Source of the DNA: Siphonodentalium dalli
Taxonomy: Eukaryota > Mollusca > Scaphopoda > Gadilida > Siphonodentaliidae
Length of the DNA stretch: 64,000 nt
Assembly: GCA_032622095.1 (NCBI GenBank)
Contig: CP136061.1
Location: forward strand, 42,103,797-42,167,796
Direction: 5' to 3'
Shown here: one piece after another, positions 233-63,843 of the stretch
How the letters are laid out: each line of letters opens with the position of its first letter
How positions within the stretch are numbered: position 1 is the first letter of the stretch
Position numbers and translations under genes: made by a program
Notes under the pieces: model-generated
What the model was told of the DNA's origin: nothing
The model's database searches: none
Seen by the model: the letters and a program-made list of their open reading frames with translations, nothing else

Positions 233-396
233 CTTCATCTGTGTTTTTCTTGTCAGCTTCTTGTGGAAGCAGAGTTTCCTCCGTCTCTGGCTTCGGCGTA
301 TCAGTGACCGTGCCTGGTAGCTTTGGCGCTGTTCGTTGTTGAAATGTGCTGTTCGACAGATCGAAGTGGAACGAATCGAGGATCAATACAACTATT
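233..396 (-). CDS. UTP20: UTP20 exon 16 of window
   Basis: 164 bp, one base, 54 codons and one base. The acceptor is TTGTTACAG before AATAGTT and the donor is GATGAAG followed by GTATGT. It encodes IVVLILDSFHFDLSN, where ILD.FHFD is a UTP20 motif, followed by a low-complexity acidic linker rich in T, P, E and K. Linkers of this type separate HEAT blocks in the family. The gene continues to the left of the window. Confidence 0.92.
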
Positions 397-409
397 CTGT
401 AACAAAAGT

Positions 410-640
410 TGAAAACTTTATTCTATCTGTAGAACATAGCATGTATCATCAAAAACTTTATCCTATCAGTAGAACATAGCATGTATCATCAAAAACTTTA
501 TCCTATCAGTAGAACATAGCATGTATCATCAAAAACTTTATCTTATCTCTAGAACATAGCATGTATCATCAAAAACTTTATCTTATCTCTAGAACATAGC
601 ATGTATCATCAAAAACTTTATCTTATCTCTAGAACATAGA
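410..640. repeat. 39 bp minisatellite abutting exon 16 acceptor
   Basis: About six units of 39 bp with the core aaaactttatcctatc. On the minus strand the unit next to the exon contains TTCTACAG before ATAG, resembling the real TTGTTACAG before AATAG only 15 bp away; later units read TTCTACTG. It may have grown from the acceptor, but the resemblance is short. Confidence 0.8.
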
Positions 641-745
641 GATGAGAGGGTTTGATTGAATAAATTGTGGCTGCATGTTATCCATAAGAAGTTTGATGAG
701 AGAATCTGATTCACCATTTTATCTTTATTTATGGTGTGTACCTAC

Positions 746-1017
746 CTCACATACATCTTCTGTCGATCAGCTTTCTTCTTCAAGACTGACAGGAAGAACG
801 TCAGCTTTCCATAATACTGTTTCCATGGTAACTGTGTACAAATAGCTCCCATGGCTTCGACAGCCGTCTGTACTAGAGTTCTGTTCGTTCCGTATGTAGG
901 ATCGGTGACATATCGTCGAGTCAGTGGAAGGAAGTACATCATCAGTGCATTTTTGTCGACTTGATGACGTGAGAGGTGCCTCACTAATCTCCGTAATGCT
1001 CGATTTCTATTGTGCAA
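746..1017 (-). CDS. UTP20: UTP20 exon 15 of window
   Basis: 272 bp, 90 codons plus AG. The acceptor is TCTTCTAG before TTGCACA and the donor is GTGAG followed by GTAGGT. It starts LHNRNRALRRLVRHL, then helix-turn-helix blocks with MYFLPLTRRYV, LVQTAVEAMGAICTQLPW and YYGKLTFFLSVLKKKADRQK. The 'V.A+GAIC..LPW..Y' stretch matches the UTP20 HEAT unit that follows the basic motif. No flanking copies of its edges were seen. Confidence 0.95.
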
Positions 1018-1059
1018 CTAGAAGATAAATGTATGTCAGGGATTACTTTACTCATATTT

Positions 1060-1308
1060 ACGGTAGCGGGGTAATGTCGCAAGAGCTATACTCGTCCTTG
1101 ACCTCGATAAATGGCCTACTCGTAGGGCGCGCATCTATAATCTCAGATCGACTCCATTTCAATTTGACTTATATATCAGGATGTTCCACCCACTTTGGTG
1201 TTCTAGAAACCACATGAAAAAGACCTGTTAATTAGTTGAATACAACGTGACTGCAAATTCTGAGGTGAAGGTAGAGTATAGCTCTTGCGACATTACCCCT
1301 CTATCCGT
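1060..1308. mobile_element. 249 bp MITE with long terminal inverted repeats
   Basis: The ends ACGG...GGGTAATGTCGCAAG and its reverse complement form inverted repeats of about 35 bp (TATAGCTCTTGCGACATTAC near 1290). A second copy lies at 62455-62712. No coding capacity. No clear target duplication was found, so the superfamily is undetermined. Confidence 0.8.
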
Positions 1309-1609
1309 GTTTACGTATTACGTACTATTATATTTCACTTAGTTTCAAATTCGCATAAGAATACCAGAACGTTTTTTGTAAACTCCTTCTGTCCAAAGGC
1401 TGTATCGTTACTTCTTTGTCCCTGACCTTAGTTTCAACTAGAGCTGGGCCTGTCCAAGGTGGGACTAAGGAATTCAATCCCCCCCCCCCCGTATTCAACA
1501 TGTTATTAAAATTAAGTAGCCATTACCATATATTGGGCACTGAAATTATGTCAACAGATAACCCTAAACCTAAACCCCTTAATCTTAAACCTATTGACCA
1601 ACAAATGTG

Positions 1610-1990
1610 TGAATAAAAGCGCGGACAAAATTATGCATGTTGCGAAAATGTTTTAAGTCGAAAAAGGGGAATAACTCCACCAAAAAAGTCGCATAGATGT
1701 CATTATCACAGGTTCCCATGGTACTAAATATCTGTGCCAAGTTTCTAAAACATTGACCTAAAAATGTAGGAATAAAAAGCTCGGTCAAAATTATGCATGT
1801 TTTGCAAATTTTCTAAGTAAAAAAAGGGAGATAACTCCATCACAAAAAGTCAGACAGATGTCATAATCGCAGATGCACAGGTTCCCATGGTACTAAATAT
1901 CTGTGCAAGTTTAAAAGAAATTGACTGAAAAATGTAGGAATAAAAACTTGGACAAATTCGTGTTCACGGGTGTACAGACAGACAAGCTGA
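1610..1990. repeat. Molluscan-type interspersed repeat, two to three diverged units
   Basis: Repeated phrases 'aggaataaaa', 'aattatgcatgtt' and 'aaaaaggg..ataactcca' in units of about 160 bp. It is related to 14635-14745. Short open frames here are not conserved between units. This type of repeat is familiar from mollusc genomes. Confidence 0.7.
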
Positions 1991-2214
1991 TTCCAGTATA
2001 CAACTCGTTGCAGGGGGTATCATGATGATCAGAGATAACTGCTGAGTATTGGTTGCAAGCATTATTATTTCTACTGGTCCAATATAATCTTTGCGCGATT
2101 CAAATAATTATAGTCATCATTGAGATAGAATTGAAGAGATAAAAACAAAAAAACACAACAATGAATATTTTAGGCTGCTGACTTGGAGAATATTATCGTG
2201 GGATTTCCTGTGTA

Positions 2215-2550
2215 AGGGTTAGTGGGTTAGGTCTGACCTCTGACCCTCAATTCACGTGGTATTTACATGCCCTCACTTCTCATGATATTTATATATACAT
2301 CGCTTGTGTGTGGGTTAGTGGTTATGGGCTGACCTCTGATCCTCAATTCTCAAGGTATTTACATGCAGCGTGCAGGTTAGTAGTTTAGGTCTGACCCTCA
2401 ATTTTCCAGGTATTTACATGCAGTGTGCAGGTTAGTGGTTTAGGTCTGACCTCTGACCCTCAATTTTCAAGGTATTTACATGCAGCGTGCGGGTTAGTGG
2501 TTTAGGGCTGACCCATGACCCTCAATTTTCAAGGTATTTTCAGCAGCCCT
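2215..2550. repeat. Minisatellite of about 60 bp, five units
   Basis: Units contain 'ggttagtgg', 'tctgacc', 'gaccctcaatt' and 'aggtatttacatgca', with variable length. Confidence 0.85.
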
Positions 2551-2904: not shown

Positions 2905-3000
2905 TTAAATTAATGATTGATTTTTATTTTTAAACATTTCGTGCTAAAACTGCTTTATGTTGTGAACCTGTGGTACAACAAACATAAACATTGAACCAAC

Positions 3001-3138
3001 CTGAATGTGTTTCATATTTTCAAAGAAATCGGCTTCTGGATCCTTGTCTTGTATTGCAGCCAAATCACGCAGCAACGGGTCCTTAGGGAAGCAGCTAGCA
3101 AGTGTCGCTAGGATACCAATACACTCATTCCTCACAGT
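3001..3138 (-). CDS. UTP20: UTP20 exon 14 of window
   Basis: 138 bp, 46 codons, phase 0. The acceptor is TTTTACAG before ACTGTGA and the donor is ATTCAG followed by GTTGGT. It encodes TVRNECIGILATLASCFPKD, PLLRDLAAIQ and DKDPEADFFENMKHIQ. D-P-E-x-D-F-F-E-N-x-x-H-I-Q is a hallmark of UTP20 and is completed by the basic L-H-N-R-x-R-A-L-R-R-L of exon 15, split exactly at the junction. Confidence 0.95.
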
Positions 3139-4423: not shown

Positions 4424-4579
4424 CTCGAGTTTGTGTTTGATTCCTCTCCGTACAGGCACCAGTATCCCGTTCTTGATGACAGCTTTGAACTGGACATCCA
4501 CATGTTCCGTATCACGGAACTGTTTGATTATGTTGTTAATACAGTTTGTACTGCTATCTCTTAGAGACATGTCATCCAC
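4424..4579 (-). CDS. UTP20: UTP20 exon 13 of window
   Basis: 156 bp, 52 codons, phase 0. The acceptor is TGATTACAG before GTGGATG and the donor is CTCGAG followed by GTATGT. It encodes VDDMSLRDSSTNCINNIIKQ, then FRDTEHVDVQFKAVIKNGIL and VPVRRGIKHKLE. DMSLRD..S..C...II is the conserved UTP20 block directly after the exon 12 segment, which shows nothing is missing across the giant intron. A near-identical copy of its start and acceptor follows at 4618-4690. Confidence 0.92.
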
Positions 4580-4617
4580 CTGTAATCAGTAATACCTGTA
4601 ATTAACCTTGGTTACAT

Positions 4618-4690
4618 TGTTAATACAGTTTGTACTGTTATCTCTTAGAGACATGTCATACACCTGTAATCAGTAATACCTGTAATTAAC
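4618..4690 (-). repeat. Recent copy of exon 13 start plus acceptor
   Basis: 73 bp copy of 4534-4606 at an 84 bp offset, with two differences by eye. The acceptor (TGATTACAG) is fully preserved, followed by GTGTATGAC instead of GTGGATGAC. The copy contains no donor, so use of this acceptor would lengthen the transcript through intron into the real exon. A hAT element inserted at its outer end. Confidence 0.92.
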
Positions 4691-24379: not shown

Positions 24380-24836
24380 GTGCCTGTTTCTACAGTTGAA
24401 AAGGCTTTCTCTGTACAAAATTTAATCAAGACAAAGCATAGGAATAGAATATCAGCTAAGTACCTAAACATGCTCATGAAAGTTTCCATTGAAGGACCTG
24501 ATGTTTCAGACATTCAAGCCTTAAAATAGTGAGCCTGTCATTTGCAGAATGAGGTCCCCAGAGGGTGAATTTAGTGATGCTACCCCGCATAGTGGGCTAG
24601 CATCACCAAATTCACCCTCTGTGGACCTCATTCTGCTTAGGCCTTAGCAGAATGAGGTTCCCAGAGGGTGAATTTGGTGATGCTAGCCCGCTGTGCGGGA
24701 TAGCATCACTAAATTCACCCTCTGGGAACCTCATTCTGCAAATGACAGGCTCACTATTTTAAGGCTTGCGGACATTATATATGACAAAGCCTTCAAGAGG
24801 TGGTCTGATGTCAAATCACGTAGAATGTTTGAATAA
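24380..24836 (+). pseudogene. hAT-type transposase C-terminal end, split by a MITE
   Basis: The frame PVSTVEKAFSVQNLIKTKHR then NRISAKYLNMLMKVSIEGP and DVSD matches the hAT C-terminal dimerisation region (E+.FS.MN.IKTK.RNRL...L..LM.ISIEGP). It stops at 24514 where a 254 bp foldback begins, resumes at 24771 in the same frame (DIIYDKAFKRWSDVKSRRMF) and ends at TAA 24834-24836. Removing the insert plus one target copy would leave an open frame, so the insertion is younger than much of the decay around it. No upstream catalytic part remains in frame. Confidence 0.75.
24515..24768. mobile_element. 254 bp CAAGCC foldback MITE inside hAT remnant
   Basis: Ends CAAGCCTTAAAATAG and its exact complement; 8 bp target duplication CAGACATT/CGGACATT (7 of 8). 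Internally two consecutive hairpins, each with a 'gaatgaggt(c/t)cccagaggg' arm. An 8 bp duplication suggests hAT-family mobilisation. Confidence 0.9.
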
Positions 24837-26900: not shown

Positions 26901-27218
26901 GTTAAAGGTATCACGAAATTAGGTGACTTACTTTCGAGTTCATTTTTTCGTTTGACGGCTTTCTTTATACGTTGACAATCATCGTCTGGTGTACAACTGA
27001 CGGAAAAAGCAGTGTTGTTTAAACGCTTGTGAAATAGGCTGATAGGATTGTAAATCCCGAATGTCAATCCCGATTAGTGATACCACGTGATACAACTTCA
27101 GACGCAAATTCTTTAGCTCCAATTCAAATGGATTTTTACTGATCGTTCCGACCGGAGACCACTCTCCACTTCGGGATTTCAGAATCTAATTTCTTGGAGG
27201 AGTTAATTTGGATATTTT

Positions 27219-29276: not shown

Positions 29277-29606
29277 GTTACTTCCTATAAACATCAACAG
29301 TCTCATATTAACATTGTGCATTCATTTGTCCGAAATGTGTGAAGATGTTAATTTTTCAGAATCATTATCAATGTTATATTGATACACAAACAGGCCATTC
29401 GATAAAAGAAAAAAAGAAAATATATATATATATATGTCGAATGGGCTTTAGCCTCAGGCTGTCGGATCAAATTTCCAGCACATGCTGGCTGTAAAACTTT
29501 AATTACATCGGTAAATAAATACTACGACTGGTAGCTAGTCCATAATTAACAATGTTACCACTGTTTCCTCAATTCCTCAGTATACTCATGACAATTTGTC
29601 TTTGAA

Positions 29607-38439: not shown

Positions 38440-38691
38440 CAAGCCTTGAAAGAGCGTGTCTGTCATTTGCAGAATGAGGTCCCCAGAGGGTGAATTTAGT
38501 GATGCTACCCCGCATAGTGGGCTAGCATCACCAAATTCACCCTCTGGGGACCTCATTCTGCTTACACCTCAGCAGAATGAGGTTCCCAGAGAGTGAATTT
38601 GGTGATGCTAGCCCGCTGTGGGGTAGCATCACTAAATTCACCCTCTGGGGACCTCATTCTGCAAATGACATGCTCACTATTTCATGGCTTG
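38440..38691. mobile_element. 252 bp CAAGCC foldback MITE
   Basis: Same two-hairpin architecture as 24515-24768. Ends CAAGCCTTGAAAGAG and a diverged complement ending ggcttg. No clear target duplication. Confidence 0.85.
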
Positions 38692-40455: not shown

Positions 40456-40611
40456 CTGCCAAATAAAGTAGAGACAGTTGTTGATGACGGGTAGGAGGTG
40501 ATCTGGAGTCAGAACAGTCATTTCTCGAATCGACTGATTTATCATTTTAAATGCTGCAAGCCTCTTAATGTAATCAGGCTCATCCAACCGCTTATCCTCC
40601 CACGAGTTTAA
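40456..40611 (-). CDS. UTP20: UTP20 exon 12 of window
   Basis: 156 bp, 52 codons, phase 0. The acceptor is TTTTGCAG before TTAAACT and the donor is TGGCAG followed by GTAAGT. It encodes LNSWEDKRLDEPDYIKRLAA, then a helix with NQSIREM and a second with LLPVINNCLYFIWQ. S-W-x-x-[KR]-R-L-D-E-P-D-Y is the clearest UTP20 signature in the window. The next exon is about 36 kb downstream. A diverged copy of its first part lies at 40721-40785. Confidence 0.93.
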
Positions 40612-40720: not shown

Positions 40721-40785
40721 ACTGATTTATCAACTCTGTTAGTCTCTTTATGTAATCTGAATCAACCAATCTATTATCGTCCCAA
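40721..40785 (-). repeat. Decayed copy of exon 12 first half
   Basis: This follows 40533-40603 with ordered matches (plus-strand blocks actgatttatca, ctctt, atgtaatc, ccaa, ttatc, tccca). The acceptor end is not recognisable. It lies about 110 bp from the exon, next to the start of the 68 bp satellite. Confidence 0.7.
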
Positions 40786-40899
40786 TGGCCAAAAAGATTA
40801 CGATCTCGCACAAGCTGATCACTTTGATGGGGATCAATATTCCCTGCACCATTTATAATAAATATTGATGAGTAGTTATCCCATAGGAAATGTTCAGAT

Positions 40900-42570
40900 A
40901 ATAAGTTTAACCCTTTCTATACTAAAGTGTCATTGATGAGTAGTTATTATTCCATAGGAAATATTCAGATAATAAGTTTAACCCTTTCTATACTAAAACA
41001 TCATTGATGAGCATTTATCCCATAGGGAATGTTCAGATAATAAGTCTAACCCTTTCAGTTTAACCCTTTCTATACTAAAACATTATCAATGAGTAGTTCT
41101 CCATAGGAAATGTTCAAGTTTAACCCTTTCTATACTAAAGCACCATTGATGAGTAGTTATCCCATAAGAAATGTTCAGATAATAAGTTTAACCCTTTCTA
41201 TACTAAAGAATCATTGATGAGTAGTTAACACATAGGAAATGTTGAGATAACAAGTTTAACCCTTTCTATACTAAAGCATCATTGATGAGTAGTTATCCCA
41301 TAGGAAATGTTCAGATAATAAGTTTAATCCTTTCTATACCAAAGGATTATTGATGAGTAGTTATCCCATAGGCAAATGTTCAGCTAATAAGTTTAACCCT
41401 TATATGCTGAAGCATCATTGATGGTAAGTTATCCCATAGGAATTGTTCAGATAAGTTTAACCCTTCTTATACTAAAGCATCATTGATGAGTAGTTATCAC
41501 ATATGAAATGTTCAGATAATAAGTTTTAACCCTTTCTATACTAAAGCATCATTGAGGGAATGTAATCCCATAGGAAATGTTCAAATAATAAGTTTTAACC
41601 CTTTCTATACTAAAGCATCATTGAGGGAATGTAATCCCATAGGAAATGTTCAGATAATAAGTTTAACCCTGTCTATACTAAAGCACCATTGATGAGGAGT
41701 TATCCCTGAGGAAATGTTCAGATAATAAGTTTAACCCTTTCTATACTAAAGAATCATTGATGAGTAGTTATCACATAGGAAATGTTGAGATAATAAGTTT
41801 AACCCTTTTTATACTAAAACATCATTGATGAGGAGTTATCCCATAGGAAATGTTGAAATAATAAGTTTAATCCTTTCTACACTAAAGCATCATTGATGAG
41901 GAGTTATCCCATAGGAAATGTTGAAATAATAAGTTTAACCCTTTCTACACTAAAGCATCATTGATGAGGAGTTATCCCACAGAAAATGTTGAAATAATAA
42001 GGTTAACCCTTTCTATACTAAATCATCATTGATGAGGAGTTATCCCACAGAAAATGTTGAAATAATAAGGTTAACCCTTTCTATACTAAATCATCATTGA
42101 TGAGGAGTTATCCCTGAGGAGATGTTCAGATAATAAGTTTAAACCTTTCTATACTAAAACATTATTGATGAGTAGTTATCCCATAGGAAATGTTCAGATA
42201 ATAAGTTTAACCCTTTCTGTACAAAATCATCATTGATGAGTAGTTATCCCATAAGAAATGTTCAGATAATAAGTTTAACCATCCTTTCTATACCAAAGTA
42301 TTAGTGATGAGTAGTTATCCCATAGGGAAATGTTCAGATGATAAGTTTAACCCTTATATGCTGAAGCATCATTGATGGGAAGTTATCCCATAGGAATTGT
42401 TCAGATAAGTTTAACCCTTCTTATACTAAAGCATCAATGATTAGTAGTTATCACATATGAAATGTTCAGATAATAAGTTTTAACCCAGTCTATACTAAAG
42501 CATCATTGAGGGAATGTTATCCCATAGAAATGTTCAGTTAATAAGTTTAACCCTTTCTGTAATAAATATT
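40900..42570. repeat. 68 bp satellite in intron 11-12, about 24 units
   Basis: Core 'taagtttaaccctttctata', 'ctaaagcatcattgatgag' and 'agttatcccataggaaatg'. Units differ at a few sites and some are truncated. The same satellite (66 bp form) occupies 55690-56600 in another intron of the gene. Confidence 0.9.
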
Positions 42571-43214: not shown

Positions 43215-43268
43215 CTGAGATATATTCTCAGTGACTGCTTCAAGTTCCTTATCATCATGGGCTATGGT
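43215..43268 (-). CDS. UTP20: UTP20 exon 11 of window (54 bp microexon)
   Basis: 18 codons in phase 0: TIAHDDKELEAVTENISQ. The acceptor is TTTCCAG before ACCATAG and the donor is TCTCAG followed by GTGAGT. It bridges ILK of exon 10 to LNSWEDKR of exon 12, and both neighbours are phase 0 here, so skipping it would stay in frame. Its splice sites are close to consensus on both sides. Confidence 0.85.
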
Positions 43269-44062: not shown

Positions 44063-44488
44063 TTACCTACCTTTAATATTTCACATAGAAGTGTTCTATT
44101 ACCTACCTTTAATATTCACACAGAAATTTTTGATTCTTCAATCTGATTCCTACCTTTAATATTTCACATAGAAGTGTTCGATTCTTCAATCTATTACCTA
44201 CCTTTAATATTACACATAGAAGTGTTTGATTCTTCAATCTATTACCTACCTTTAATATTTCACATAGAAGTTTTTGATTCTTCAATCTGATACCTACCTT
44301 TAATATTTCACATAGAAGTGTTCTATTCTTCAATCTATTACCTACCTTTAATATTTCACATAGAAGTTTTTGATTCTTCAATCTATTACCTACCTTTAAT
44401 ATTTCACATAGAAGTTTTTGATTCTTCAACTATTACATACCTTTAATATTTCACATAGAAGTGTTTGATTCTTCAATCTATTACCTAC
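44063..44488 (-). repeat. Exon 10 donor-side 48 bp minisatellite
   Basis: About nine units of 48-49 bp (shorter at the outer end) read on the minus strand as exon 10 end (CTTCTATGTGAAATATTAAAG), donor GTAGGTAAT and a short spacer. Because 48 is divisible by three, the array reads open for about 106 codons as a repeated LLCEILKVGNRLKN-like peptide. Read-through from the real exon would stop after one unit, because the nearest unit has lost a T (44427-44440) and shows an in-frame TGA. Donors are nearly all intact; one reads GTATGT. Confidence 0.9.
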
Positions 44489-44558
44489 CTTTAATATTTC
44501 ACATAGAAGTGTTCGATTCTTTCTTCCTGCTATTCTTGCAAGTAGTTCAGAGAGCTTT
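44489..44558 (-). CDS. UTP20: UTP20 exon 10 of window
   Basis: 70 bp, one base plus 23 codons. The acceptor is ATTTTCAG before AAAGCTC and the donor is TTAAAG followed by GTAGGT. It encodes KLSELLARIAGRKNRTLLCE and ILK; the R..LLC motif is typical of this part of UTP20. The last ~31 bp and the donor recur about nine more times at 44063-44488. Confidence 0.88.
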
Positions 44559-45384: not shown

Positions 45385-48300
45385 CTGAACAAACCCCCAT
45401 CAGTTAAATGTCATGACAGTCCAATGATATACAAACCCCATCAGTTAAATGTCACGACAGTCCAATGATATACAAACCCCATCAGTTAAATGTCATGACA
45501 GTCCAATGATATACAAACCCCATCAGTTAAATGTCACGACAGTCCAATGATATAAATGTCATGACAGTCCAATGATATACAAACCCCATCAGTTAAATGT
45601 CACGACAGTCCAATGATATAAATGTCATGACAGTCCAATGATATACAAACCCCATCAGTTAAATGTCACGACAGTCCAATGATATACAAACCCCATCAGT
45701 TAAATGTCATGACAGTCCAATGATATACAAACCCCATCAGTTAAATGTCATGACAGTCCAATGATATACAAACCCCATCAGTTAAATGTCATGACAGTCC
45801 AATGATATACAAACCCCATGTTAAATGTCATGACAGTCCAATGATATACAAACCCCATGTTAAATGTCATGACAGTCCAATGATATACAAACCCCATCAG
45901 TTAAATGTCATGACAGTCCAATGATATACAAACCCCATCAGTTAAATGTCATGACAGTCCAATGATGAACAAACCCCATCAGTTAAATGTCATGACAGTC
46001 CAATGATATACAAACCCCATGTTAAATGTCACGACAGTCCAATGATATACAAACCCCATCAGTTAAATGTCACGACAGTCCAATGATATACAAACCCCAT
46101 CAGTTAAATGTCATGACAGTCCAATGATATACAAACCCCATGAGTTAAATGCCATGACAGTCCAATGATATACAAACCCCATCAGTTAAATGTCATGACA
46201 GTCCAATGATATACAAACCCCATGTTAAATGTCATGACAGTCCAATGATATACAAACCCCATCAGTTAAATGTCATGACAGTCCAATGATATACAAACCC
46301 CATCAGTTAAATGTCATGACAGTCCAATGATGAACAAACCCCATCAGTTAAATGTCATGACAGTCCAATGATATACAAACCCCATCAGTTAAATGTCATG
46401 ACAGTCCAATGATGAACAAACCCCATGTTAAATGTCATGACAGTCCAATGATGAACAAACCCCATCAGTTAAATGTCATGACAGTCCAATGATATACAAA
46501 CCCCATCAGTTAAATGTCATGACAGTCCAATGATGAACAAACCCCATGTTAAATGTCATGACAGTCCAATGATGAACAAACCCCATCAGTTAAATGTCAT
46601 GACAGTCCAATGATATACAAACCCCATGTTAAATGTCATGACAGTCCAATGATATACAAACCCCATCAGTTAAATGTCATGACAGTCCAATGATATACAA
46701 ACCCCATCAGTTAAATGTCATGACAGTCCAATGATATACAAACCCCATCAGTTAAATGTCATGACAGTCCAATGATGAACAAACCCCATGTTAAATGTCA
46801 TGACAGTCCAATGATGAACAAACCCCATCAGTTAAATGTCATGACAGTCCAATGATATACAAACCCCATCAGTTAAATGTCATGACAGTCCAATGATGAA
46901 CAAACCCCATCAGTTAAATGTCATGACAGTCCAATGATATACAAACCCCATCAGTTAAATGTCATGACAGTCCAATGATGAACAAACCCCATGTTAAATG
47001 TCATGACAGTCCAATGATGAACAAACCCCATCAGTTAAATGTCATGACAGTCCAATGATATACAAACCCCATCAGTTAAATGTCATGACATTCCAATGAT
47101 GAACAAACCCCATGTTAAATGTCATGACAGTCCAATGATGAACAAACCCCATCAGTTAAATGTCATGACAGTCCAATGATGAACAAACCCCATCAGTTAT
47201 ATGTCATGACAGTCCAATGATATACAAACCCCATCAGTTAAATGTCATGACAGTCCAATGATATACAAACCACATGTTAAATGTCATGACAGTCCAATGA
47301 TATACAAACCCCATCAGTTAAATGTCATGACAGTCCAATGATGAACAAACCCCATGTTAAATGTCATGACAGTCCAATGATATACAAACCCCATCAGTTA
47401 AATGTCATGACAGTCCAATGATATACAAACCCCATCAGTTAAATGTCATGACAGTCCAATGATATACAAACCCCATCAGTTAAATGTCACGACAGTCCAA
47501 TGATATACAAACCCCATCAGTTAAATGTCATGACAGTCCAATGATATACAAACCCCATCAGTTAAATGTCACGACAGTCCAATGATATACAAACCCCATC
47601 AGTTAAATGTCATGACAGTCCAATGATATACAAACCCCATGTTAAATGTCATGACAGTCCAATGATATAAAAACCCCATCAGTTAAATGTCACGACAGTC
47701 CAATGATATACAAACCCCATCAGTTAAATGTCAGGACAGTCCAAATTGCAATGATATACAAACCCCATCAGTTAAATGTCACGACAGTCCAATGATATAC
47801 AAACCCCATCAGTTAAATGTCACGACAGTCCAATGATATACAAACCCCATCAGTTAAATGTCACGACAGTCCAATGATATAAAAACCCCATGAGTTAAAT
47901 GTCATTACAGTCCAATGATATACAAACCCCATCAGTTAAATGTCACGACAGTCCAATGATATACAAACCCCATCAGTTAAATGTCATGACAGTCCAATGA
48001 TATACAAACCCCATGAGTTAAATGTCATGACAGTCCAATGATATACAAACCCCATCAGTTAAATGCCACAACAGTCCAATGATATACAAACCCCATCAGT
48101 TAAATGTCATGACAGTCCAATGATATACAAACCCCATCAGTTAAATGTCATGACAGTCCAATGATATACAAACCCCATCAGTTAAATGTCACGACAGTCC
48201 AATGATATACAAACCCCATCAGTTAAATGTCACGACAGTCCAATGATATACAAACCCCATCAGTTAAATGTCATGACAGTCCAATGATATACAAACCCCA

Positions 48301-50416
48301 TCAGTTAAATGTCATGACAGTCCAATGATATACAAACCCCATCAGTTAAATGTCACGACAGTCCAATGATATACAAACCCCATCAGTTAAATGTCATGAC
48401 AGTCCAATGATATACAAACCCCATCAGTTAAATGTCATGACAGTCCAATGATATACAAACCCCATCAGTTAAATGTCATGACAGTCCAATGATATACAAA
48501 CCCCATCAGTTAAATGTCATGACAGTCCAATGATATACAAACCCCATCAGTTAAATGTCATGACAGTCCAATGATATACAAACCCCATCATTTAAATGTC
48601 ACGACAGTCCAATGATATACAAACCCCATCAGTTAAATGTCACGACAGTCCAATGATATACAAACCCCATCAGTTAAATTTCATGACAGTCCAATGATAT
48701 ACAAACCCCATCAGTTAAATGTCACGACAGTCCAATGATATACAAACCCCATCAGTTAAATGTCATGACAGTCCAATGATATACAAACCCCATCAGTTAA
48801 ATGTCACGACAGTCCAATGATATACAAACCCCATCAGTTAAATGTCACGACAGTCCAATGATATACAAACCCCATCAGTTAAATGTCATGACAGTCCAAT
48901 GATATACAAACCCCATCAGTTAAATGTCATGACAGTCCAATGATATACAAACCCCATCAGTTAAATGTCATGACAGTCCAATGATATACAAACCCCATCA
49001 GTTAAATGTCACAACAGTCCAATGATATACAAACCCCATCAGTTAAATGTCACGACAGTCCAATGATATAGAAACCCCATGTTAAATGTCACGACAGTCC
49101 AATGATATACAAACCCCATCAGTTAAATGTCATGACAGTCCAATGATATAGAAACCTCATCAGTTAAATGTCATGACAGTCCAATGATATAATTTTATAA
49201 TTTTTAATGTGTTAAGCCAATGCATTCTCTTATATATGCGAGGTGACCTATACAAACCCCATCAGTTAAATGTCACGACAGTCCAATGATATAGAAACCT
49301 CATCAGTTAAATGTCATGACAGTCCAATGATATACAAACCCCATCAGTTAAATGTCATGACAGTCCAATGATATACAAACCCCATCAGTTAAATGTCACG
49401 ACAGTCCAATGATATACAAACCCCATCAGTTAAATGTCATGACAGTCCAATGATATACAAACCCCATCAGTTAAATGTCATGACAGTCCAATGATATACA
49501 AACCCCATCAGTTAAATGTCATGACAGTCCAATGATATACAAACCCCATCAGTTAAATGTCATGACAGTCCAATGATATACAAACCCCATGTTAAATGTC
49601 ATGACAGTCCAATGATATACAAACCCCATGTTAAATGTCATGACAGTCCAATGATATACAAACCCCATCAGTTAAATGTCATGACAGTCTAATGATATAC
49701 AAACCCCATCAGTTAAATGTCATGACAGTCCAATGATATACAAACCCCATCAGTTAAATGTCACGACAGTCCAATGATATACAAACCCCATCAGTTAAAT
49801 GTCACGACAGTCCAATGATATACAAACCCCATCAGTTAAATTTCATGACAGTCCAATGATATACAAACCCCATCAGTTAAATGTCACGACAGTCCAATGA
49901 TATACAAACCACATCAGTTAAATGTCATGACAGTCCAATGATATACAAACCCCATCAGTTAAATGTCACGACAGTCCAATGATATACAAACCCCATCAGT
50001 TAAATGTCACGACAGTCCAATGATATACAACCCCATCAGTTAAATGTCATGACAGTCCAATGATATACAAACCCCATCAGTTAAATGTCATGACAGTCCA
50101 ATGATATACAAACCCCATCAGTTAAATGTCATGACAGTCCAATGATATACAAACCCCATCAGTTAAATGTCACAACAGTCCAATGATATACAAACCCCAT
50201 CAGTTAAATGTCACGACAGTCCAATGATATACAAACCCCATGTTAAATGTCACGACAGTTCAATGATATACAAACCCCATCAGTTAAATGTCATGACAGT
50301 CCAATGATATACAAACCCCATGTTAAATGTCACGACAGTCCAATGATATACAAACCCCATGTTAAATGTCATGACAGTCCAATGATATACAAACCCCATC
50401 AGTTAAATGTCATGAC
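45385..50416. repeat. 41 bp satellite array, about 120 units
   Basis: Unit phrases 'tacaaaccccatcagttaaa' and 'tgtcatgacagtccaatgat'. Variants: a 39 bp form lacking CA (catgtt), ATGA versus ACGA, and tatac versus tgaac. From about 46290 to 47390 the variants alternate in a roughly three-unit pattern, an emerging higher-order repeat. The array fills most of the intron between exons 9 and 10, and a MITE hairpin is embedded in it (see 49193). Confidence 0.93.
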
Positions 50417-50510
50417 GGTCGCCTCACATATATAAGAGAATGCATTGGCCTAACAATTTTTTACAATTTTAATAATTTGTTCTTGTATTCTTTAACAATT
50501 TTATAATTTC
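49193..50510. mobile_element. P1-type MITE fragment whose hairpin loop holds 1.17 kb of satellite
   Basis: Left arm at 49193-49250 (ending gaggtgaccta) and right arm from 50417 (ggtcgcctcacatata) onward match the two sides of one MITE palindrome. The 1,166 bp between them, 49251-50416, is pure 41 bp satellite. Beyond the right arm (50450-50510) the sequence resembles the A/T-rich MITE spacer. The element ends are not recognisable. Confidence 0.75.
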
Positions 50511-51869: not shown

Positions 51870-52331
51870 CACCCATAGAACGGTGTCCATGGATAGATAC
51901 AATCATTTCACCACTTAACTGTTTCAATGGATACGATATACTCACTTGTAGAACTGTTTCCATGGATACGATGAACTCACCCATAGAACTGTTTACATGG
52001 ATACGATGAACTCACCCATAGAACTGTTTCCATGGATACGATGAACTTGCCCATATAACTTTTTCCATGGATACGATGAACTCACCCATAGAACTATTTC
52101 CATGAATATGATTAACTCGCTCATAGAACTGTTTCCATGGATATGATGAACTCGCCCATAGAACTGTTTCCATGGATACGATGGACTCACCCCATAGAAC
52201 TGTTTCCATGGATACGATGAACTCATCCATAGAACTGTTTCCATGGATAGGATGAACTCACCCGTAGAACTGTTACCATGGATACGATGAACTCACCCAT
52301 AGAACTGTTTCCATGGATACGATGAACTCAC
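51870..52331 (-). repeat. Exon 9 donor-side 35 bp minisatellite
   Basis: About 13 units of 35 bp read, on the minus strand, as exon 9 end (AAACAGTTCTATGG), donor (GTGAGTTC) and a 13 bp spacer. Most units keep GTGAG intact; a few carry substitutions (GTGAGTC, GCGAGTT, GCAAGTT). Because 35 is not a multiple of three, read-through shifts frame at every unit. Short open frames across the array on this strand are by-products. Confidence 0.88.
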
Positions 52332-52405
52332 CCATAGAACTGTTTCTTCTTCTTGATGAGCTTCAGTAGGTTCAGCATACTGTTTAGCAGATCCTCCTCC
52401 ATTTC
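52332..52405 (-). CDS. UTP20: UTP20 exon 9 of window
   Basis: 74 bp, 24 codons plus GG. The acceptor is AACTCTAG before GAAATGG and the donor is CTATGG followed by GTGAGT. It encodes EMEEDLLNSMLNLLKLIKKK and KQFY. The GG joins A of exon 10 to give glycine. The last ~23 bp plus the donor are amplified in the following intron into a 35 bp minisatellite (51870-52331). The outermost copy is used because it alone has the full exon upstream of it. Confidence 0.88.
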
Positions 52406-53058: not shown

Positions 53059-53152
53059 CTCATTTTTGCCGCCAGCAGCAGAAACCAGGAACGGAAGTAG
53101 TAATCTGATGATATCTGAACACTGTTTGTAGCTCTTCACATACCCACTAATT
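53059..53152 (-). CDS. UTP20: UTP20 exon 8 of window
   Basis: 94 bp, one base plus 31 codons. The acceptor is TTAACAG before AATTAGT and the donor is AATGAG followed by GTTTGT. It encodes ISGYVKSYKQCSDIIRLLLP and FLVSAAGGKNE. The ILS.ISGYVK...C..I..LLLPFL pattern continues the HEAT array. It ends in phase 0 and joins exon 9. A TTAA MITE ends only 36 bp from its donor (52797-53019). Confidence 0.9.
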
Positions 53153-55361: not shown

Positions 55362-55506
55362 AGAGAGAGAATCTTGATCTGCTTTCTGCCCGTCACCTTC
55401 TTTTTATGACTTTCCATGTTCTTGACATATTTGTGTATATACTGCAGTATCTGTGGTATATATGGAGCCAGAAGCATGCCACCAAGAGGCATAACTATTA
55501 AAGAGT
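55362..55506 (-). CDS. UTP20: UTP20 exon 7 of window
   Basis: 145 bp, two bases, 47 codons and two bases. The acceptor is ATTACAG before ACTCTTT and the donor is TCTCTCT followed by GTTAGT. It encodes SLIVMPLGGMLLAPYIPQIL, then YIHKYVKNMESHKKKVTGRK and QIKILS. An internal AAGAAG-GTGACG could act as an earlier donor, but only the later site restores phase (CT plus A makes CTA) with exon 8. Its 5' half and acceptor are copied three times in the preceding intron (55536-55760). Confidence 0.9.
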
Positions 55507-55535
55507 CTGTAATATAAATTAATCATGAGTAATAA

Positions 55536-55760
55536 TGTGTATATACTGCAGAATATGGGTGTGTACGGAGCCATAACTATCACAGAGTCTGTAAAATAAA
55601 TTAATCATGAGTAATAGTGTGTATATACTGCAGAATATGGGTGTGTATGGAGCCATAACTATCACCAAATCTGTAAAAATATACTAAAAACTCATCGAGT
55701 AGTTCCCTCAGGAAATATTATACAGAGCCATAACTATCACCAAATTTGTAAAAATATACT
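55536..55760 (-). repeat. Three copies of exon 7 start plus acceptor
   Basis: Units at 55536-55617, 55618-55682 and a truncated one at 55725-55760 copy the exon 7 5' half. All lack the same 21 bp of exon (7 codons). The first two keep ACAG at the acceptor position (ACAG before ACTCTG, then ACAG before ATTTGG), so they are potentially usable decoy acceptors. The third sits inside the first unit of the adjoining 66 bp satellite. Confidence 0.85.
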
Positions 55761-56610
55761 AAAACTCATCGACGAGTAGTTCCCTCAGGAAATATTCAAA
55801 TAATAAGTTTAACCCTTTCTATTCTAAATACTCATCGACGAGTAGTTACCTCAGGAAATATTCAAATAATAAGTTTAACCCTTTCTATACTAAAAACTCA
55901 TCAACGAGTAGTTCCCTCAGGAAATATTCAAATAATAAGTTTAACCCTATCTATTCTAAATACGCATCAACGAGTAGTTACCTCTGGAAATATTCAGATA
56001 ATAAGTTTAACCCTTTCTATTCTAATTACTCATCGACAAGTAGTTACCTCAGGAAATATTCAAATAATAAGTTTAACCCTTTCTATTCTAAATACTCATC
56101 AACGAGTAGTTCCGTTAGGAAATATTCAAATAATAAGTTTAACCCTTTCTATTCTAAATACTCATCAACGAGTAGTTACTTCAGGAAATATTCAAATAAT
56201 AAGTTTAACCCTTTCTATTCTAATTACTCATCGACGAGTAGTTACGTCAGGAAATATTCAAATAATAAGTTTACCCCTTTCTATTCTAATTACTCATCAA
56301 CAGGTAGTTACCTCAGGAAATATACAAATAATAAGTTTAACCCTTTCTATTCTAAATACTCATCAACGAGTAGTTACTTCAGGAAATATTCAAATAATAA
56401 GTTTAACCCTTTCTATAATAATTACTCATCGACGAGTAGTTACCTCAGGAAATATTCAAATAATAAGTTTAACCCTTTCTATTCTAAATACTCATCGACG
56501 AGTAGTTACCTCAGAAAATATTCAAATAATAAGTTTACCCCCTTTCTATTCTAAATACGCATCGACGAGTAGTCACCTCAAGAAATATTCAAATAATAAG
56601 TTTAAGCGTC
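55690..56610. repeat. 66 bp satellite, about 13 units
   Basis: Core 'taagtttaaccctttctatt', 'ctaaatactcatcgacgag' and 'tagttacctcaggaaatatt'. Homologous over the unit with the 68 bp array at 40900-42570. It starts within the run of exon 7 edge copies. Confidence 0.92.
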
Positions 56611-56686: not shown

Positions 56687-56922
56687 CTGATTCATTGATG
56701 TAGTCTGACATATCCATAGACACCATGTTGCTGACCTCTAACATCCGCATGTGACCTTCATCGTCCGCCGGTTCTGCCGGCTCCAGAAGATTCTCGATCA
56801 TATTACTTATCATGTTAATGACTGAGTTCTTAACTCCCTTGGCTGTTAGTAACGACATAACATACGGCAATGTCGTGAAGGCCTGGTCGCTAGGATGATG
56901 CTTAGCAAGCAAGCTTAGATAC
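56687..56922 (-). CDS. UTP20: UTP20 exon 6 of window
   Basis: 236 bp, one base, 78 codons and one base. The acceptor is ATTTGCAG before GTATCTAAG and the donor is AATCAG followed by GTTTGT. It begins YLSLLAKHHPSDQAF, matching the UTP20 RYFPLLAK-like segment, then a helical block (VINMISNMIENLLE), an acidic linker (EPAEPADDEG) and a closing helix. The split codon with exon 7 is GAC. The intron before it contains a partial copy of its first half (56942-57045). Confidence 0.92.
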
Positions 56923-56941: not shown

Positions 56942-57045
56942 TAATTATCTCCCTTGACTGTTAGTAATACCATTATATATGGTAGGGTTGAAAGGTATGG
57001 TCGTGGATGATGCTTTATAGCAATCAAGCTCAGTTATCTGCAAGG
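56942..57045 (-). repeat. Decayed copy of exon 6 start plus acceptor
   Basis: This follows 56823-56930 (exon 6 first half and acceptor) with many substitutions and a few indels. The acceptor region reads TTGCAG before ATAACT, so the AG survives. A 254 bp foldback element sits just beyond it, and its target duplication AGGGCAAA overlaps this copy's outer end. Confidence 0.75.
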
Positions 57046-57050
57046 GCAAA

Positions 57051-57304
57051 CAAGCCTTGAAATAGTGTGTCTGTCATTTGCAGAATGAGGTTCCCAGAGG
57101 GTGAATTTAGTGACGCTACCCCGCATAGCAGGCTAGCATCACCAAATTCACCCTCTGGGAACCTCATTCTGCTGAGGTGTAAGCAGAATGAGGTCCCCAG
57201 AGGGTGAATTTGGTGATACTAACCCGCTATGCGGGGTAGCATCACTAAATTCACCATCTGGGGACCTCATTCTGCAAATGACAGGCACACTATTTCAAGG
57301 CTTG
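57051..57304. mobile_element. 254 bp CAAGCC foldback MITE with perfect 8 bp TSD
   Basis: Ends CAAGCCTTGAAATAG and complement; target duplication AGGGCAAA (57043-57050, 57305-57312). Two hairpins inside. Confidence 0.93.
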
Positions 57305-58154: not shown

Positions 58155-58234
58155 CTTTTTCTCTGTGAACAAAGATGCAGTAATTTCAGCAAAACTGTCG
58201 GACTGTAAACGCCTTCTGTCGGTAGATTTTTAAT
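58155..58234 (-). CDS. UTP20: UTP20 exon 5 of window
   Basis: 80 bp, 26 codons plus AG. The acceptor is CTGATTCAG before ATTAAAA and the donor is AAAAAG followed by GTGAGA. It encodes IKNLPTEGVYSPTVLLKLLH and LCSQRK. A second AG (TTTACAG) at about 58206 would give a shorter exon, but that start breaks phase with exon 4. The outer acceptor keeps the frame and supplies the conserved SPT.LLKL motif, so it was chosen. Confidence 0.88.
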
Positions 58235-58478: not shown

Positions 58479-58553
58479 TCAGAATGTGGCCAGACAGCAA
58501 CTTTAAATAAGATGACCCGCTCATCATAACTGTGGCCAGACAGTGCATCTTAC
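58479..58553 (-). repeat. Decayed copies of exon 4 donor end
   Basis: Two partial copies of the exon 4 3' end. The one at 58479-58520 follows the exon for about 40 bp with substitutions. The one at about 58531-58545 is only about 15 bp (plus strand ctgtggccagac). Neither keeps a GT after the CCACA, so both donors are dead. Confidence 0.65.
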
Positions 58554-58631
58554 CTGTGGCCAGACTGCGACTTCAAACACAGCGTCCACCTCATCTACTG
58601 TGAACTTGTATTGCTCGAAGTCATCAAAGAA
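58554..58631 (-). CDS. UTP20: UTP20 exon 4 of window
   Basis: 78 bp, exactly 26 codons in phase 0. The acceptor is TTTTCAG before TTCTTTG and the donor is CCACAG followed by GTAAGA. It encodes FFDDFEQYKF, an acidic turn (VDEVD) and AVFEVAVWPQ. A hydrophobic-x-WPQ block followed by an SPTPLLKL-like block is a recognisable UTP20 pairing, and here the second block is in exon 5. Partial decayed copies of the donor end lie at 58479-58553. Confidence 0.9.
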
Positions 58632-60209: not shown

Positions 60210-60405
60210 CTGCAACAATCTGCTTAGACCTATCTGCCGGAGCTTTTTGAGATTTGTGACGTGGTGACTGTTGATTAGCTCCCTTTGACTGAGACACTTG
60301 ACGACGATTGCAAGAAGACCGAGGACGATTTGCAGGATCGAAGGGAGATAATCCTCTATCAGAAATCCCATCTTACTTAGAATCGTATCAATGGTGTTAT
60401 ATACC
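60210..60405 (-). CDS. UTP20: UTP20 exon 3 of window
   Basis: 196 bp, one base plus 65 codons. The acceptor is TTTTACAG before GGTATAT and the donor is TTGCAG followed by GTATTC. It encodes YNTIDTILSKMGF, a long hydrophobic helix (LPSILQIVLGLLAIVVKCL), and a basic end NLKKLRQIGLSRLLQ that runs into FFDDF of exon 4. The paired amphipathic helices fit HEAT-type repeats. It ends in phase 0. A diverged copy of its first part, with the acceptor, lies immediately upstream in transcript order (60418-60476). Confidence 0.9.
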
Positions 60406-60417
60406 CTGTAAAATAAA

Positions 60418-60476
60418 GAAATCCAATCTTACTCCGAATCCTATCAATTGTGTTATACACCACGTTAAATAAGAGA
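60418..60476 (-). repeat. Decayed copy of exon 3 start plus acceptor
   Basis: This aligns across its length with 60362-60419, the exon 3 start and acceptor, at about 80 percent by eye. The acceptor AG is lost: the plus strand reads ccacgt where the real site reads ccctgt. The two copies abut directly, so this is an old short tandem duplication. Confidence 0.75.
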
Positions 60477-60799
60477 TTGACATGAAATCAGACAATAAAT
60501 AACTATGGTAACTATGACCTTTAAAATAAAATGAATATTCGTATCTAAATTACCTACTACAACAGAGAGAGAATTGATGTAATGATAGTTATTATGGCAG
60601 CATTGGGAATAAATTTATTTTGTACAAGATAAGCTAAAATGAAGGAATTTATAATCTTTGAAACATTATTTTGACAAAGGTGGGTTAACCATGTTATTTA
60701 CAAATGAACTAACTGTAAACTGTGAACTTATTATTTTCATAAACAATTTGACCTGTGAGTTAGCACATTAAAACGAAGAGGTCGTAAAAACTGTAGTAT

Positions 60800-61126
60800 A
60801 GTTACCCCTGGATTTTAAACGAAGATGTGGTAATAATTGTAGTATAGTTACCCCTGGATTAAAACGAAGAGGTCGTAAAAACTGTAGTATAGTTACCCCT
60901 GGATTTTAAACGAAGAGGTGGTAATAACTGTAGTATAGTTACCCCTGGATTAAAACCAATAGGCCGTTAAAACTGTCATATAGTTACCCCTGGAGTTTCC
61001 TGAGAGGGAATAGATTGTGTAGATGTATAGTTACCCCTGGATTTTCCTGAGAGGGAATAGATTGTGTAGATGTATAGTTACCCCTGGATTTTCCTGAGGG
61101 AATAGATTGTGTAGATGTATAGTTAC
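60800..61126 (-). repeat. Exon 2 donor-side minisatellite (decoy 5' splice sites)
   Basis: Seven tandem units of about 45-47 bp, each carrying the donor hexamer GTAACT after CCAGGG (plus-strand agttac starts at 60800, 60846, 60891, 60937, 60982, 61029 and 61076; the real one is at 61121). The three units nearest the exon also keep the exon sequence for HNLFPLRKIQG; the outer units retain only the last exon bases and then diverge. The array is therefore an amplified exon-intron boundary, not intronic DNA that happens to lie near an exon. Confidence 0.88.
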
Positions 61127-61205
61127 CCCTGGATTTTCCTCAGAGGGAATAGATTGTGTAGATTCACGGCTTCCATAACTTCCTGCACCTTATTATATGG
61201 ATTGT
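61127..61205 (-). CDS. UTP20: UTP20 exon 2 of window
   Basis: 79 bp, 25 codons between two split codons. The acceptor is TTTTCAG before ACAATCC and the donor is CCAGGG followed by GTAACT. It encodes NPYNKVQEVMEAVNLHNLFP and then LRKIQ, joining exon 3 through a GGG codon. The block is short and would be missed on length alone, but it is the only block here that satisfies phase on both sides. The final 37 bp of the exon and its donor are repeated seven more times in the following intron (60800-61126), so donor choice could be ambiguous. I chose the outermost copy because it is continuous with the rest of the exon. Confidence 0.85.
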
Positions 61206-61417
61206 CTGAAAAGTCAAATGGTTCCAAATAACATTCTGCATCTGAGTATAGCATAATTATGAAAAGATATGAGGGAAGATGAACTTGAACAATTGTTTTA
61301 GGATAACGCTTAGTAAATTAATTCCCGAATTTCTGTCAGTTTCACAAACATTTTTGATAAAAAGTCATCTTAAATAATTGAAGATTAATGAAAGCTTGAA
61401 GGGAATCAAGGCCCTCG

Positions 61418-61658
61418 ATGTGGGTTAATGTGAAGTGGGTTCATGTGAAGTGGGTTCATGTTAAGTCGATTCATGTGAAGTCGATTCATGTGAAGTGGGT
61501 TCATGTTAAGTGGATTCATGTGAAGAAGTGGGTTCGTGTGAAGTGGATTCGTGTAAAGTGCGTTCATGTGAAGTGGGTTCGTGTGAAGTGGATTCGTGTG
61601 AAGTGGGTTCATGCAAAGTGGGTTCATGTAAAGTGGAATCATGTGAAGTGGGTTCATG
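61418..61658. repeat. 15-16 bp minisatellite, left part
   Basis: 'aagtgggttcatgtg' repeated about 16 times; open in several frames on both strands. It continues at 63187-63232 after a hAT insertion. Confidence 0.92.
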
Positions 61659-63186
61659 CAGGGTTTCCGCCAGGCCGGCTGCGGGTCCGCCCCACGGACC
61701 CATTCCCCCCGTCGGTCGTTGCATGAAACCCCGCTCATACACAAATAAATGACTTTATTAAAAACTTATTCAGTCTTGTCTGTGTCAACAGGCTATATAT
61801 ATCTACACTTATTTTCATTAATATTGACAAAATGAAATCGACAGTCCATCTCCCGAAAAAAACAATAAGAATAGCACGCAAATACATTGGGAGCAAAACA
61901 TCAAAGGTGGCAAACATCAAAGGCGGAAAACATCAATGCCATCAGAATAAGCTGAGCAGGACTCCGTGCGGTATGCCGATTTGCTCGAGCTTCACGTGCG
62001 TCAGCTGTAGACTTTTCTGGGCCTAATGATTTTCCAGGAAACCACAGAATTAATGCTGAGCATGTTGCAATAATATGGCCGTAGACAATGGTTCTGATTG
62101 TTGTCGACATCAACCAGTTTTGTAAATAACTGTTCGAACATTTTACGAATGGTCGTCGGAAAGTGAATTTAGTGGCGCTAGTCTGTTAGCGTCACCAAAT
62201 TCGCCTTCTGTGGAGTTTATTCTTGAATACTAAAATACATTTTCTAAGCCCTTGAATTCCTTAGGTTTCCGACCCCATCCGGAAAACCCTTGATTCCCTT
62301 CAAACCATGGGGAAAAAGTCACGAATAGTTGCCCAATATATAGAGCGATTGTAAGATCATTATAAATTATAATTTCCAATTACGCAAGGGGAGACTTAAG
62401 CTGAAAGTCCGAGTTTAGTCCCCTGCTAGCTTAGCAAGGGGACTGAATTGTTTTACGGAAGAGTGGTAACGTCGGAAGAGCTATACTCCTCCTTGACCTC
62501 GGTTAACGGGTATACTTGTATGGCACGCATCTATACTCACAAATCGACTCCACTCAATTTTAGTTATAACTTATATATCAGGATGTTCCACCCACTTTGG
62601 TGTTCTAAAAACCACCGGAAAGAGATCCGTTAATTAGTTTAATATAACGTGACTGCCATTCTGGGGTTGAAGGTCGGAGTATAGCTCTTGCGACGTTACC
62701 CCCGCCACCCTGTTTTGCAGCTTGGGGAGACCAGCGATGTAGCACTCTGATCCCAGTTTGACCTTTGCACTGGCTTCCACATTGCACCAAAGTTTTCATG
62801 TCTGTCCACATTCCTAAGATTTCAGTAAACCACCTTTAAAAAAACGCTGGGTGCTTAGTCCGAGAATGCACATTTTTGCGAGCACCGTTTACAGAAGGAC
62901 ACTGGTTGACATCCTCATTCGTTTCTGAAGGCACCGTCTGCCGTCGTGATTGTGTCGGTAGGAAAACTTTGCTACCGTCCATCGTTAGCCGATTAGATGT
63001 GACATGCTGATGGCACGTGCATGTGTATTTCTCCGTGTCTCAGATGCATGGAACTGGCGTTTCTGCCGCTGTTGTAAAACGGAACATTTTTGTATGCATG
63101 CACGAACCATGGTCGCTCCTGCCGAACTGTGCCCCCCCCCCCCACCCAGGAACGGACCCATTTATATTTCCCTAGCGGAAACCCTG
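61659..63186. mobile_element. hAT-like insertion splitting a minisatellite, about 1.53 kb
   Basis: Ends CAGGGTTTCCGCCAGG and 'ccctagcggaaaccctg'. The flanks are both minisatellite (ggttcatg / gttcatgt), compatible with an 8 bp duplication within one base. Contains the 250 bp MITE at 62455-62712, a degenerate foldback near 62160-62215 and a C-run at 63131-63143. No transposase recognised. Confidence 0.75.
62455..62712. mobile_element. Second copy of the 250 bp MITE
   Basis: Collinear with 1060-1308 across its length, including the shared interior tatcaggatgttccaccc. It lies inside a larger hAT-like insertion (61659-63186). Confidence 0.8.
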
Positions 63187-63232
63187 GTTCATGTGAAGTG
63201 GGTTCATATAAAGTGGGTTCACAAGAAATAAC
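63187..63232. repeat. Minisatellite, right part
   Basis: Three units of the array interrupted at 61658. Confidence 0.85.
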
Positions 63233-63676
63233 ATGAATTTGATAAAAATCTGTAAAACAATTTATCATCAACAAGTGCATGTAAAATAGGTCAAGTTTGT
63301 TATCATTTTCATTATCAATAACTTTCCAATGACAAGATTTAGCATATTAAAACCATTGTTATGTAAACATAACTATTACAGTGGCATTACCAATCAATGT
63401 GTTCTTTATAACTAACATGGAATCTTGCAGTTTGGAAAATACTGTGTTTTCTTTTCAAACGATCATCGTATGAATGGTTAGAATCGTAGTATGTAATTAG
63501 TTAATATGAACGAGAACAGATCAGTAGAAGTGATGCAAATAAATTTGTCAACTCCCAGCCTCCCTTATAAATTAATGTCCTTGAAAGATAAGTATTAAAG
63601 TGGCATAACTTTTTATCAGCAATTACATAATTCAATGACAAGCAAGTGCGAGTTAGATATTGTATTTATTACTCAC

Positions 63677-63843
63677 CAGAATAGAGATGTTTGCAGGAAG
63701 AGAACACGAGATCCATGAAGACATTCAGTTCAACCTTACTGCAGCCATTCAGGAAGCGGAAGATTATAGCTCGCCGGAAGTCAACGCTAGACCGCCCAGC
63801 AGCATTCTTACCAGTCTTTCGTTGTAACTTCCCATACAAAATT
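63677..63843 (-). CDS. UTP20: UTP20 exon 1 of window (DRIM domain start)
   Basis: 167 bp, 55 codons plus one base at each end. The acceptor is CTTCCAG before AATTTTG and the donor is TCTG followed by GTGAGT. It encodes ILYGKL, then a basic stretch (RRAIIFRFLNGC) and an acidic/hydrophobic helix (ELNVFMDLVF). This matches the opening of the DRIM domain, where an ILYGRM-like motif is followed by RR..I.RFL..C. The last base joins AC of exon 2 to make a GAC codon. The preceding exon lies beyond position 64000; 63844-64000 shows no coding block. Confidence 0.9.

Follow-up and report, generated by a model that had tools for sequence, protein, structure and literature searches.

The window analysed here is the whole of a 64,000-nucleotide stretch of the genome of the scaphopod Siphonodentalium dalli (assembly GCA_032622095.1, contig CP136061.1), corresponding to C1:42103797-42167796 of a 2.23-Gb genome in nine contigs, and it carries part of the essential gene UTP20 on the minus strand. 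Sixteen exons in the window join into 719 codons without a stop, and the joined protein matches residues 1015–1718 of human UTP20 (7mq8_SP) with an E value of 8.8e-123, which bears out the gene and exon assignment of an initial annotation of this DNA. That annotation had also proposed that the edges of the exons, with their splice sites, are repeatedly copied into the adjoining introns. Our analyses show that the splice donors of UTP20 are favoured about 5-fold as sites of duplication, and 8-fold for arrays of at least three copies, and that exon edges as such are not favoured; 'exon edges' is the wrong wording, and 'donor edges' the right one for UTP20.

Exons were placed by tblastn, the query being human UTP20, and splice sites were refined by phase. 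As in the initial annotation, exons are numbered in transcript order within the window:

233–396 (minus strand): exon 16, by tblastn with phase-consistent splice sites
746–1017 (minus strand): exon 15, by tblastn and phase
3001–3138 (minus strand): exon 14, by tblastn and phase
4424–4579 (minus strand): exon 13, by tblastn and phase
40456–40611 (minus strand): exon 12, by tblastn and phase
43215–43268 (minus strand): exon 11
44489–44558 (minus strand): exon 10
52332–52405 (minus strand): exon 9
53059–53152 (minus strand): exon 8, by tblastn and phase
55362–55506 (minus strand): exon 7, donor shifted 4 bases for phase
56687–56922 (minus strand): exon 6, by tblastn and phase
58155–58234 (minus strand): exon 5, by tblastn and phase
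58554–58631 (minus strand): exon 4, by tblastn and phase
60210–60405 (minus strand): exon 3
61127–61205 (minus strand): exon 2
63677–63843 (minus strand): exon 1 of the window, by tblastn and phase

Copies at exon edges in the window

Local copies that span a splice junction, defined by a score of at least 18 at a distance of no more than 200 bp, occur at six of the 16 exons: at the donors of exons 2, 9 and 10, and at the acceptors of exons 3, 7 and 13. The initial annotation had counted at least nine exons with such copies; those at the six exons are clear, and the remaining three (exons 4, 6 and 12) are weak or old. Its description of the donor sides of exons 2, 9 and 10 as tandem arrays was correct, since in each case the array spans the exon-intron donor and the units contain the donor. 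The features concerned are:

60979–61163 (minus strand): exon 2 donor array, 47-bp unit, 4.0 copies
60767–60994 (minus strand): second array behind the exon 2 donor array, 46-bp unit, 5.0 copies
51917–52346 (minus strand): exon 9 donor array, 35-bp unit, 12.3 copies
44095–44521 (minus strand): exon 10 donor array, 48-bp unit, 8.9 copies
60361–60472 (minus strand): exon 3 acceptor duplication, 56 bp, 2.0 copies, upstream copy without AG
55486–55678 (minus strand): exon 7 acceptor duplication, 82 bp, 2.4 copies, AG retained upstream
4533–4690 (minus strand): exon 13 acceptor duplication, 84 bp, 1.9 copies, AG retained in the upstream copy
58522–58541 (minus strand): exon 4 donor, short copy of 20 bp at an offset of 24, GT lost, below the main threshold, coordinates by hand
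57005–57053 (minus strand): exon 6 acceptor junction, old diverged copy, 79.6% identity over 49 bp, coordinates by hand
40727–40784 (minus strand): exon 12 start, degraded upstream copy, score 26 over 58 bp, coordinates by hand

The 46-bp array continues the 47-bp array at exon 2 and has a donor core (ATCCAGGG GTAACTATAC) in common with it. Exon 10 ends ...ATATTAAAG / GTAGGTAATAG, the slash marking the exon-intron junction, and the 48-bp array follows, its unit composed of 33 nt of exon tail and 15 nt of intron. At the exon 4 donor a further copy of 41 bp of exon tail lies 70 bp on and stops short of the junction; both copies there (scores 16 for the 20-bp and 19 for the 41-bp copy) were left out of the counts. 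The exon 6 acceptor copy is single and gapped, and lies about 115 bp upstream, while the degraded copy at exon 12 begins 9 nt inside the exon, so that the junction is not part of it. Two further copies had been put forward as possible, at exons 8 and 16, and neither was confirmed: the local search for edge copies at exon 8 gave only matches of E 0.2 or worse, and the 40-bp array neighbouring exon 16 ends about 15 bp before the acceptor junction, with no junction copy confirmed there.

Donors, acceptors and the intron background

The initial annotation had proposed comparing exon edges with intron DNA, and we made this comparison in UTP20 and in myosin and dynein genes. Adjoining UTP20 DNA (109 kb) was added to the window, giving 173 kb with 47 exons, 43 donors and 47 acceptors; a weak tblastn match at residues 410–430 was dropped, and several stretches of human UTP20 have no mapped exon. 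The donors of exons d, q and v2 (undefined) were left out, exon zd has no donor, the donor of exon v was placed by hand at the first copy of its array, and acceptor v2 was added during the reading of that array. One UTP20 exon found later through its array (L004, about 87 bp x 6) was kept out of the counts. The comparison sample comprised 15 myosin loci, with 38 donors and 40 acceptors, and 80 of 89 dynein matches, which yielded 58 usable donors and 73 usable acceptors. Myosin locus L018 (4 exons) was excluded, its tblastn exon matches being almost the same as those of L020; for some myosin matches the start was cut back by hand ahead of splice-site choice, and 2 of 80 myosin edges have low splice scores. 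The dynein matches not included comprise eight from two near-duplicate groups and one with several stops, and 29 of 160 dynein edges lack an acceptable splice site. Each copy was pointed to its origin, arrays were collapsed and each duplicated ancestral position was counted once.

On this collapsed null, with copies again taken at a score of at least 18 and within 200 bp, 5.3% of ancestral intron positions in UTP20 are duplicated, so that its introns are richer in local tandem duplication than those sampled from myosin (3.2%) and dynein (3.0%); the interior of UTP20 exons is duplicated at 0.8%. Eleven of the 43 UTP20 donors are duplicated, against 2.3 expected (P 1.1e-5), and among the 27 donors outside the window, which the earlier reader had not seen, the count is eight (P 5.6e-5). 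UTP20 acceptors, by contrast, are at background (3/47 vs 2.5 expected). Hence the claim that splice junctions are favoured over ordinary tandem duplication survives for the donors of UTP20, fails for acceptors and, in the other genes, finds modest support for arrays of three or more copies. Counts at any copy number in those genes were 3/38 donors (1.2 expected) and 0/40 acceptors (1.3) in myosin, and 2/58 donors (1.7) and 3/73 acceptors (2.2) in dynein; over the three gene sets together, 6/160 acceptors are duplicated where 5.9 are expected. A gapped search at a raw score of at least 32, incomplete in sensitivity since it missed the old exon 6 copy, gave 12/43 UTP20 donors against 3.3 expected and 3/47 acceptors against 3.6, with 6/113 acceptors against 4.9 in the other genes.

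The difference between donors and acceptors lies above all in arrays of three or more copies. These occupy 8/43 donors in UTP20 (1.0 expected) and 1/47 acceptors, 2/38 donors in myosin (0.5 expected) and 0/40 acceptors, and 2/58 donors in dynein (0.2 expected) and 1/73 acceptors. When expectations are matched for GC content, the eight UTP20 donors compare with 1.00 (Poisson P 1e-5) and the single acceptor with 0.89, while in the other genes 4/96 donors compare with 1.01 (Poisson P 0.02) and one acceptor with 0.85. Pooled, 12/139 donors (2.0 GC-matched) carry such arrays and 2/160 acceptors (1.7), a difference with a Fisher P of 0.004. The pooled profile behind the donor falls from 8.4% at 0–20 bp to 3.9% at 20–40 bp and 0–1% at 40–100 bp, and stands at 0.8–2.6% at 100–320 bp.

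Tandem Repeats Finder (TRF) lists 37 arrays of at least four copies in the UTP20 region, 29 of them without any mapped edge inside, and these arrays cover 8/43 donors (0.7 expected) and 0/47 acceptors. By the same program, donors with at least three copies are those of exons 2, 9 and 10 and six outside the window, where the arrays are of 45 bp x 10, 40 bp x 13, 78 bp x 6 (two donors), 40 bp x 5 and 34 bp x 3; units at UTP20 donors thus measure 34–78 bp. Four of 11 TRF periods at UTP20 donors are multiples of three, the same as chance.

The window holds other repeats as well. A 5-kb array with a 41-bp unit lies at 45389–50420, between exons 9 and 10, with no exon edge seen at its start. Similar units of 66–68 bp make up arrays at 40864–42566 and 55755–56605, in two different UTP20 introns, and this minisatellite family is therefore dispersed. 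Two-copy repeats of about 102 bp at 24544–24739, 38469–38662 and 57080–57275 share nearly one consensus (GCAGAATGAGGTCCCCAGAG...), the unit of which includes a reverse-complement half, and they resemble a dispersed short inverted-repeat element. A non-LTR (long terminal repeat) retrotransposon occupies 27207–32774 (plus strand) in the large intron that separates exons 12 and 13; in it a 689-aa frame without a Pfam match is followed by a 1061-aa ORF (open reading frame) with endonuclease and reverse transcriptase domains.

Possible origins of the donor arrays

The explanation that we favour, and whose prospects we judge evenly balanced, is that the arrays are minisatellites produced by local tandem duplication and sieved by the polarity of splicing. 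Local tandem duplication, frequent throughout the examined introns, would give birth to minisatellites. When a unit straddles a donor, the 5'-most copy would stay joined to the exon body and in use, and the extra copies would leave with the intron, so that the array would be free to grow; duplications of this kind would go unnoticed in the message so long as splicing keeps to the first donor. When a unit straddles an acceptor, it is the 3'-most copy that would be joined to the exon; the duplication would place a second, spare acceptor ahead of the genuine one, and extra copies could capture splicing, so that arrays would stay short. Arrays inside exons would be removed. The proposed sieve would thus explain why arrays grow at donors while acceptors and exons lack such growth.

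In seven of ten UTP20 donor arrays, reading through the first donor meets a stop before the second, and to judge from the reading frames splicing presumably takes place at the exon-contiguous donor; in two a stop follows shortly after the second donor, and one is open through nearly all copies. Most downstream donors would therefore bring stops, and in most of the arrays splicing at a downstream copy would ruin the message. The protein predicted with the first donor at exons 2, 9 and 10 aligns to human UTP20 without a repeat. From these features we infer use of the first donor and, from the shortage of long acceptor arrays, their removal. At a UTP20 exon outside the window, a 78-bp donor array (L004, 5328–5791) has a frame open through nearly all six copies, so that repeats of 26 residues might be added to the protein.

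Several observations weigh against this explanation. The sieve alone leaves the 5–8-fold excess of UTP20 donors over ordinary intron DNA unexplained; tolerance alone cannot lift donors above intron DNA, and therefore either a mutational bias linked to donors or some advantage has to be at work as well. The strong excess comes from one gene and is modest elsewhere, duplications of any copy number affecting 5/96 myosin and dynein donors against 3.5 GC-matched, which is not significant, and likewise 5/96 against 4.2 in the gapped search. Acceptors are at, not below, background, and removal there is visible only in copy number. Furthermore, 'first donor wins' is no general rule, because in human DOK7 it is SRSF1 that determines which of two neighbouring donors is chosen, the downstream one being favoured (PMC5585400).

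A mutational cause linked to donors could supply what the sieve lacks: active germ-line donors, through polymerase pausing, R-loops or breaks for example, would duplicate several times more often than other DNA. We regard this as a tentative suggestion. It agrees with the excess being centred on the junction and down to background within 40–60 bp, and with the failure of base composition as an explanation; GC content was rejected as a cause because, although intron duplication in UTP20 climbs with it (2.6% to 9.3%), the GC-matched expectation for arrays of at least three copies is 1.0 where eight are observed. Donor-like GT sites inside UTP20 introns show no excess either (1/40 in arrays of at least three copies, background 2.4%), although this control is small. 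Set against it, there is little sign of such a process at myosin and dynein donors, and in those genes duplication, whatever the copy number, affects 4/35 sense donor-like intron sites (background 3.1%) and 1/43 antisense ones (sense vs antisense, P 0.17); a plain sequence effect of donor-like words may operate there.

In its widest form, active donors would be donor-specific birthplaces of minisatellites across this genome, through duplication linked to transcription or to splice-site recognition, with the 5'-most donor always winning; we hold this version rather doubtful. A genome-wide word test compared donor 9-mers repeated three times in a row with the same words reversed, word frequency being uncontrolled. 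Whole-genome matches numbered 231 for AAGGTAAGT against 378 reversed, and 1467 for CAGGTAAGT against 439 reversed, counts dominated by satellites, in which one long array makes many matches. Counted as distinct places, AAGGTAAGT gave at least 17 against 6 reversed on C1–C3 (forward matches listed up to C3 299.03 Mb), and CAGGTAAGT gave 12 against 11 reversed among matches listed on C1 and on C2 up to 32.7 Mb. If donors were indeed preferred birthplaces of arrays, DNA structure would bear the imprint of transcription or splicing, and donor arrays would have to be taken into account when genes are annotated and variants called from long reads in repeat-rich genomes.

Positive selection for redundancy, in which additional donors would bring in more U1 and enhance or fine-tune splicing of the intron, fits an excess over intron DNA that is confined to donors, but we think it unlikely. 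The initial annotation had suggested that GT stays nearly intact in the arrays and that selection might preserve it. Among extra copies that share at least 80% identity with the first, GT is kept in 3/3 at exon 2 and 8/8 at exon 10, as described, but in only 5/9 at exon 9, where it ranks last among the 34 column pairs of the unit. Over the arrays together GT is kept in 52/57, the expectation from a random dinucleotide column being 50.8 (P 0.48), and selection to keep GT is not supported. Nor, in UTP20, are array donors weaker than others (median score 5.5 vs 4.4, P 0.21) or the introns behind them longer (P 0.94).

Chance, combined with the choice of a striking window, would mean that edge copies are no commoner than overall tandem duplication predicts, which we consider improbable. 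Raw coverage does suggest this, since 23.7% of UTP20 intron positions lie in local repeats and 14/90 edges do, and the other genes taken alone are near background. We rejected the raw-coverage comparison, which showed no donor enrichment and an apparent acceptor depletion: its null is biased, since intron points see an array of n copies n times and a junction sees it once. With parent pointers and TRF units in its place, the donor conclusion was reversed and the acceptor depletion disappeared. The collapsed counts, within and outside the window, contradict chance for UTP20, and TRF agrees with them, although UTP20 could be an extreme draw from the genome as a whole. Mis-assembly of long reads into false arrays is very improbable, given that copies vary by point changes and small indels, that unit and sequence differ between the arrays of different exons, and that TRF finds no array of at least three copies at the 47 acceptors.

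Relation to known systems

Taken together, the donor repeats of UTP20 suggest that something about donors lets them arise or survive. The initial annotation knew of no described system of this kind, a statement that proves too strong. A minisatellite in human IFI6 was reportedly described by Turri in 1995 as supplying multiple splice donors. Its repeat units act as splice donors, and two downstream units are used (PMC4526556). Both systems have minisatellite units that contain donors, several in a row; IFI6 is a single case, whereas here many donors of one gene are affected with units of 34–78 bp, and downstream units serve as donors in IFI6 while in UTP20 their use is mostly predicted to lead to stops.

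Other precedents share the size of the units or their position. Human genes in segmental duplications contain internal tandem repeats, on average a 30-bp unit x 4, some of them at exon-intron boundaries (PMC2812944, in part); minisatellite-size units in several copies at a boundary are also true of the UTP20 arrays, but the sections available deal with paralog differences and possible novel introns, and a contrast between donors and acceptors was not seen in them. In Drosophila, short tandem duplications that cross an exon-intron boundary or carry a proto-splice site are a route to new introns (PMC2891723). UTP20 shares with this the duplication itself, but in the proto-splice-site model the intron gained is as large as the duplicated segment, whereas UTP20 introns pre-exist and are long (from array donors to the next mapped acceptor the median is 1660 nt). 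The available part of a report on intron repeats of earthworm metallothionein (PMC12783039) showed none that cross a splice junction, and no report of a donor-specific or donor-versus-acceptor excess was found in open-licence literature, by titles and abstract starts among the matches listed.

Rows of near-identical donors, such as those in UTP20, provide a natural experiment in which the spliceosome has to choose between equivalent donors. The donor minisatellite as a kind is known from IFI6; its frequency and its polarity in UTP20 look new.

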